From positions 496,001 through 560,000 of the forward strand of contig NC_133914.1 in the NCBI RefSeq assembly GCF_964199755.1: a stretch of 64,000 bases of DNA, written 5' to 3'. This document shows positions 62,395-62,544 of this stretch, one piece after another (position 1 is the stretch's first letter; every line of letters begins with the position of its first letter). The position numbers were made by a program, and so were the translations under genes. The DNA is from Larus michahellis. Its lineage: Eukaryota; Chordata; Aves; Charadriiformes; Laridae. The notes below the pieces were generated by a model that saw nothing but the letters and a program-made list of their open reading frames with translations, did not search any database and had not been told where the DNA came from.

Positions 62395-62544
62395 GGCTCC
62401 GGCTCCGGCTCCGGCTCCGGCTCCGGCTCCGGCTCCGGCTCCGGCTCCGGCTCCGGCTCCGGCTCCGGCTCCGGCTCCGGCTCCGGCTCCGGCTCCGGCT
62501 CCGGCTCCGGCTCCGGCTCCGGCTCCGGCTCCGGCTCCGGCTCC
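62395..62544 (+). repeat. (GGCTCC)25 perfect hexanucleotide array
   Basis: Twenty-five uninterrupted GGCTCC units (GGAGCC on the minus strand), 150 bp, about 400 bp upstream of the RBBP4 start codon. Reading frames through it give Gly-Ser, Ala-Pro or Leu-Arg on one strand and Gly-Ala, Glu-Pro or Ser-Arg on the other, which explains the long apparent open frames here. Confidence 0.99.

Follow-up and report, generated by a model that had tools for sequence, protein, structure and literature searches.

A perfect GGCTCC hexamer array between the divergent genes RBBP4 and ZBTB8OS, probably grown by replication slippage

The window, by which we mean the whole 64-kb stretch of Larus michahellis DNA analysed here (contig C23:496001–560000), contains an uninterrupted run of 25 GGCTCC hexamers in the interval between two genes that point away from each other, RBBP4 and ZBTB8OS. 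RBBP4 is a chromatin gene, and ZBTB8OS encodes archease, which is required for tRNA splicing. How did so pure an array come to stand between these two genes, and does it do anything there? Our main reading, to which we give a probability of roughly 70%, is that replication slippage built up the array, a perfect hexanucleotide microsatellite, in the CpG-island promoter region common to the divergent pair.

Gene setting of the array

The array, its two neighbouring genes and the promoter-like elements around it are located as follows.

54466–61993, minus strand: RBBP4 coding exons; tblastn pieces at 54466–61070 jointly span residues 6–425.
61991–61993, minus strand: RBBP4 start codon; exon 1 encodes MADKE and is followed by GT; the array starts 401 bp upstream.
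About 61401–62600, either strand: CpG-island stretch between RBBP4 and ZBTB8OS, with a GC content of 0.63–0.81 and a CpG o/e of 0.66–0.98 in 200-bp bins.
62178–62213, either strand: two promoter-like CCAAT boxes (at 62178 and 62209), string matches.
62265: CACGTG, a string match between the array and the RBBP4 start.
62306: GCCGCCATTTTCCGG, YY1/ETS-like, a string match between the array and the RBBP4 start.
62359–62363, plus strand: TTAAA, a string match that begins 36 bp ahead of the first full unit of the array.
62394–62547, plus strand: hexamer array; the perfect period-6 tract is 154 bp long (25.7 units) and consists of (GGCTCC)25 and partial units, with the 25 full units at 62395–62544.
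63975: CAGGAAGT, ETS-like, a string match.

The tblastn query for RBBP4 was the human sequence. Compared with the PDB, one RBBP4 exon matched RBBP4 chains best, with 131.9 bits, and RBBP7 with 120.7 bits; Pfam returned no match for this exon, and another exon gave only a propeller match below the cut-off. On the other side of the array, the ZBTB8OS start codon lies at 64011 on the plus strand, 11 bp past the end of the window and 1,464 bp from the array. The Pfam archease domain was recognised in one ZBTB8OS exon, and a whole-genome search found ZBTB8OS at a single place, the RBBP4–ZBTB8OS locus. The exon matches demonstrate a divergent gene pair with the array in its head-to-head interval. 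The first-pass annotation had placed the array beside the RBBP4 promoter; the adjacency to RBBP4 is confirmed by its start codon and exon matches, but the divergent partner ZBTB8OS had been overlooked. In a Pfam search of eight translated pieces, one S100P-binding protein, one class I tRNA synthetase and one intermediate-filament protein were also recognised. From their neighbourhood, we take the synthetase to be YARS1 and the intermediate-filament protein to be SYNC, and the gene order around the pair presumably matches the mammalian order.

The CpG island ends just past the array, and rightward of it the CpG o/e is 0.11–0.36 as far as 63800 and 0.48 in 63801–64000. The TTAAA at 62359–62363 is a possible TATA-like element for rightward transcription. 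The array region is probably a control or promoter region common to RBBP4 and ZBTB8OS. Its 25 perfect head-to-tail units, where a promoter repeat requires at least six, lie less than 2 kb upstream of both genes, with distances taken to the start codons (401 bp for RBBP4 and 1,464 bp for ZBTB8OS). Among the literature matches listed, no title or opening of an abstract concerns a GGCTCC array at either gene, which is not proof of absence; in the available part of one paper, ZBTB8OS appears only among genes expressed in hen liver (PMC6839265).

Sequence and purity of the array

The tract at 62395–62544 agrees letter for letter with the pure 25-copy GGCTCC array that had been claimed, and its GC-richness is upheld. 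Tandem Repeats Finder (TRF) reported 100% matches and no indels across 62394–62547, where there is no odd unit and no mismatch across the 25 units. A string count gave 26 CpG and 25 CCGG sites within the tract. A hexamer scan of the 64-kb window, which excluded units that are themselves repeats of 1–3 bases, found only two perfect arrays of at least four copies, the second of which is as follows.

42569–42592, minus strand: separate 4-copy GGCTCC array, about 20 kb from the 25-unit array.

This second array, also listed in the first-pass annotation, is real and lies on the opposite strand; it has the word in common with the first. The window contains the 12-mer GGCTCCGGCTCC 27 times, with 24 occurrences in the 25-unit array and three in the array at 42569; 100 dinucleotide shuffles gave 0.01 on average.

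Other kinds of repeat occur elsewhere in the window. A tandem repeat at 48714–49048 on the plus strand belongs to an open frame of 555 codons that has an intermediate-filament domain; the frame there reads a repeated 20-letter protein stretch, and a repeat expansion seems to account for the part ahead of the domain. At 39036–39754 there is a dense C-rich minisatellite region with several overlapping periods that include 23, 35, 56–58 and 147, and the GC skew is −0.46 in 39001–40000.

The substitution rate is about 2 × 10−9 per site and year. At this rate, a 154-bp tract is expected to acquire one interruption per approximately 3 million years, by arithmetic rather than measurement, and the purity of the array therefore fits recent or continuing turnover.

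Rank of the array within its genome

In the searched genome of 1.405 Gb and 616 contigs, (GGCTCC)3 has 106 matches (84 forward and 22 reverse); the reversed-pattern control has 10 (4 and 6). We derived array lengths from 100 of these 106 places, which resolve into 41 arrays: 22 of three units, 10 of four, three of five, two of six, two of seven, one of 10 and one of 25; the remaining six places hold at most one 8-unit array. The array next to RBBP4 is thus the longest GGCTCC array among the matches listed, with a runner-up of 10 units, a rank that holds for GGCTCC alone. A geometric distribution fitted to the lengths of the remaining 40 arrays expects about 4 × 10−6 arrays of at least 25 units, a rough yardstick that real arrays need not obey. 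Because the step from 10 to 25 units lies beyond this simple model, a local factor, such as the transcription start, the direction of replication or selection, may add to slippage.

Length change in a multicopy family

Among the matches listed, we analysed 14 of the 40 other arrays: all eight with at least five units, six of the 10 with four units and none of the 22 with three. Eight of these 14 belong to one multicopy GC-rich sequence.

L012, L013, L014, L015, L016, L018, L020 and L025, on contigs C512, C377, C565, C121, C127, C397, C144 and C358: copies of the multicopy family.

The best pairwise pieces of these copies are 87–98% identical over about 1–2 kb (28 pairs), and each copy has a ATTAAAAG box followed by a GGCTCC array, the arrays comprising 10, 7, 7, 6, 6, 5, 4 and 4 whole units. 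On either side of the array, the flanks, compared over at most about 250 bp per side with the array columns and alignment ends excluded, are 96.7–99.5% identical in all 28 pairs. L014 and L020 differ by three substitutions and one gap position in the compared flanks, yet their arrays are three units apart. If the copies are correctly assembled, GGCTCC therefore shifts in length faster than its surroundings mutate in this genome; G runs in the flanks are likewise variable in length. The family demonstrates the lability of the hexamer, not that of the array between RBBP4 and ZBTB8OS, and its copies may include assembly errors. For the hexamer as such, it indirectly upholds the length change suggested in the first-pass annotation.

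The remaining six analysed arrays are short (4.2–5.8 units) and have flanks unlike those of the family. All 14 lie in CpG-rich flanks (o/e 0.73–1.09 and GC 0.58–0.83), as does the 25-unit array; since eight of them are one family, these amount to seven independent settings. We claim no common origin of the 25-unit array with the family, as the flanks outside the arrays match only briefly, the best match being 44 bp at 82% (E = 4 × 10−4) and the rest at most 27 bp, many of them in G runs. Searches bearing on the identity of the family found no Rfam match and no MHC-like GFYP/FYPG motif in L026–L028, and no Pfam match in nine of the 34 listed open reading frames (ORFs) of L026.

Predicted hairpin structure

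On both strands, as RNA and as DNA, the minimum-energy fold of the array is one long regular hairpin, with four GC pairs per repeat and 2 × 2 internal loops between them. The predicted RNA energies are −94.4 and −122.2 kcal/mol for the plus and minus strands (z = −2.9 and −10.8), and the DNA energies are −48.4 and −55.7 kcal/mol (z = −2.1 and −4.8). The hairpin surpasses all 200 shuffles for the RNA of both strands and for the DNA of the minus strand; for plus-strand DNA, six of the 200 shuffles fold equally well and the centroid is unpaired, so that the evidence for a hairpin is weak there. According to these models, structure-assisted slippage would proceed through hairpins.

The first-pass annotation had proposed quadruplex formation, with the C9orf72 repeat as the known comparison. 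The C9orf72 GGGGCC repeat is a GC-rich hexamer close to the 5′ end of its gene, with a CpG at every junction. The GGCTCC array shares its GC-richness, its position near a 5′ end and its junction CpGs, and the antisense of the array would also read Gly-Ala in one frame. It differs in having runs of only GG and CC, with no G3+ motif and a weak two-tetrad G2 pattern, in a mean G4Hunter score of −0.15, near zero, compared with 2.0 for GGGGCC, in its predicted hairpin and in the lack of a disease link. ViennaRNA with quadruplexes permitted formed none in the GGCTCC array, but formed them for GGGGCC and CGG. With G4Hunter, the G3+ motif count and the quadruplex-permitting RNA fold all negative, we discarded the quadruplex model; the parallel to C9orf72 is weak. 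The short C runs argue against an i-motif. Four G3+ quadruplex motifs were observed around the 5′ end of RBBP4, at 61734–61755, 61997–62024 and 62039–62065 on the plus strand and at 62617–62637 on the minus strand, and one of the four is a 16-G run in the first intron of RBBP4.

Relation to the ZBTB8OS transcript

The array could also lie within the 5′ untranslated region (UTR) of ZBTB8OS. Transcription would then begin to the left of the array, exon 1 would end at 62596 (or 62726) and join 63917, and a (GGCUCC)n hairpin would slow ribosome scanning, with the copy number tuning the archease level. We consider this possible but doubtful. It is compatible with an origin by slippage, and both can hold. 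The relevant splice sites are as follows.

62594–62602, plus strand: candidate splice donor CTG|GTGCGT, score 7.05, with its last exon base at 62596; it would close a putative noncoding ZBTB8OS exon 1 that includes the array.
63899–63917, plus strand: top acceptor before the ZBTB8OS start codon, score 11.6, with its first exon base at 63917; the best in 62600–64010, where the next scores 9.66.

The scores used splice-site frequencies, and the ZBTB8OS coding splice sites served as a gauge (six donors at 6.0–11.1 and six acceptors at 2.1–15.8). Acceptor 63917 tops its interval and donor 62596 falls within the range of the coding donors, but several rival donors and acceptors are nearly equal. 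In particular, the choice of donor 62596 is weak because the donors after 62726 (7.97), 62740 (6.06), 62841 (5.97) and 62780 (5.95), all to the right of the array, have similar scores. The splice scores thus point weakly to a noncoding ZBTB8OS first exon that contains or abuts the array. The extent of the CpG island, which reaches the array and stops near 62600, ahead of a CpG-poorer stretch before the start codon (0.48 in 63801–64000), is consistent with the 5′ UTR reading, as are the TTAAA beginning 36 bp ahead of the first unit and the predicted RNA hairpin of −94.4 kcal/mol. However, the ETS-like CAGGAAGT at 63975 could signal that ZBTB8OS has a promoter of its own downstream of the array. 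A hairpin of this strength should also impede the translation of a needed tRNA-splicing gene, which speaks against the presence of the array in the main ZBTB8OS transcript.

The FMR1-type CGG repeat sits in a 5′ UTR CpG island. The GGCTCC array resembles it in its possible first-exon location in a CpG-island gene and in having a CpG per unit, and differs in its six-base unit and in being flanked head to head by two genes.

Reading frames and RNA families

We rejected a coding role for the array in each of three frames. One of these is a feature in its own right.

62264–62569, minus strand: ATG-started ORF of 101 codons, (Arg-Ser)n with about 25 Arg-Ser pairs; it would need a leftward transcript starting to the right of the array.

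This ORF lies upstream of the inferred RBBP4 transcription start, and Pfam gave only a sub-cut-off match to the RS-rich PRP38_assoc (18.8 bits against a cut-off of 25, E = 0.0025), as Arg-Ser repeats would give; it is probably not expressed. An ATG-started plus-strand frame of 231 codons also crosses the array (61992–62687) and has no Pfam match. Splicing of 62596 to 63917 would leave a frame open to the ZBTB8OS start codon, which reads (Leu-Arg)n without an in-frame ATG, and stop-poor, GC-rich DNA makes such open frames cheap. No known RNA family reached the gathering score in the 64-kb window.

Assembly error and SMAD binding

The array, or its length, is very unlikely to be an assembly artefact, whether by collapse or by false extension of a GC-rich repeat. 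According to the available part of a study of bird sequencing data, GC-rich tandem repeats are poorly covered there, but PacBio is named as able to read GC-rich repeat regions, at much lower efficiency (PMC6792250). The tract, at 154 bp, is small relative to long reads and has no odd units, and the 600 bp that flank it on the right occur only once in the assembly. With a single copy of this flank, no second haplotype was found for comparison.

A similarly low probability attaches to the array as a working SMAD cluster, in which a run of 25 neighbouring sites would concentrate or titrate SMAD1/5 (or SMAD3/4) at the promoter common to RBBP4 and ZBTB8OS, and both genes would become responsive to BMP or TGF-β. 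The array unit is identical to the non-palindromic GC-rich SMAD binding element (npGC-SBE), which, in the available part of the source, is bound by the MH1 domains of SMAD1, SMAD3 and SMAD4 with Kd values of approximately 540, 660 and 1336 nM, respectively (PMC11907993). The same part states that linkers shorter than 5 bp do not hinder double SMAD1 MH1 binding. The available text of a Smad5 review lists GGAGCC among SMAD words (PMC11585160). The promoter also contains the palindromic word GGCGCC twice, at 61961 and at 62145.

The arrangement of the sites argues against a response. As described in the available part of PMC11907993, BMP response requires mirrored sites 5 bp apart and clustering alone is insufficient; two palindromic sites at 5 bp give a response, whereas homotypic npGC-SBE pairs at 5 bp give none. 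The 25 GGCTCC words of the array are all co-oriented, with spacers that are multiples of 6 only (0, 6, 12 ... 138), and a search of 61400–64100 for six composite patterns gave no hit. The array therefore shares its word with the elements described in that source and differs from them in having neither the 5-bp spacing nor a mirrored pair. The word is also frequent, with 83 GGCTCC and 61 GGAGCC in the 64 kb, the arrays counted in, and GGAGCC also turns up in a paper on splicing elements (PMC4559876). Given the many known motifs, a single six-letter word can coincide with one of them by chance. SMAD binding to the array is possible, and a BMP response is not expected. Least probable of all is a slippage-made docking element or sink of 25 SMAD sites, which would bind MH1 domains, withhold rather than activate through its wrong spacing and set the BMP/TGF-β sensitivity of both genes by its length; if true, it would be a transcription-factor cluster created wholesale by microsatellite expansion.

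Discussion

Replication slippage thus remains our preferred origin of the array. Slippage aided by hairpins from the self-complementary CCGG junctions would have produced it, and low germline methylation of the CpG island may have spared its CpGs from decay. The array would fall in the first 200 bp of ZBTB8OS to be transcribed, or just upstream of them. Its effect, if any, would be weak and length-dependent, acting on spacing, nucleosome occupancy or, if the array is in the 5′ UTR, the translation of ZBTB8OS, and it would have no dedicated function.

Such repeats are known from other birds. In the available part of a survey of 2-kb avian promoters, perfect hexanucleotide repeats of at least six units number 24 in chicken, 8 in turkey, 14 in duck, 69 in zebra finch and 122 in flycatcher (Abe and Gemmell 2016, PMC4725869). 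The mean numbers of hexamer units given there are 9.81, 7.25, 13.01, 11.10 and 32.18, respectively, in a table that leaves unspecified whether they refer to perfect or to all arrays. Units of at least four bases have more copies in all five birds but turkey; according to the authors, assembly differences may matter, and the flycatcher promoter sequences contained gap-filling stretches of G or C. The array beside RBBP4 is like these repeats in being perfect, at least six units long and less than 2 kb upstream of genes; its 25 units exceed the means of chicken, turkey, duck and zebra finch (7.25–13.01) and fall short of that of flycatcher. In humans, promoter microsatellites tend towards GC-richness and show an association with CpG islands and with untranslated regions, as stated in the available part of PMC3566118. 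The 25-unit array is a new, long example of the already known avian promoter hexamer repeats, and by itself mostly ordinary.

The multicopy family, with its arrays of 4–10 units between near-identical flanks, provides a gauge, within the same genome, of the rate of GGCTCC slippage relative to substitutions. If the length of the array between RBBP4 and ZBTB8OS varies among individuals, it would serve directly as a marker and allow a natural test of how a GC-rich promoter repeat alters two divergent genes at the same time.
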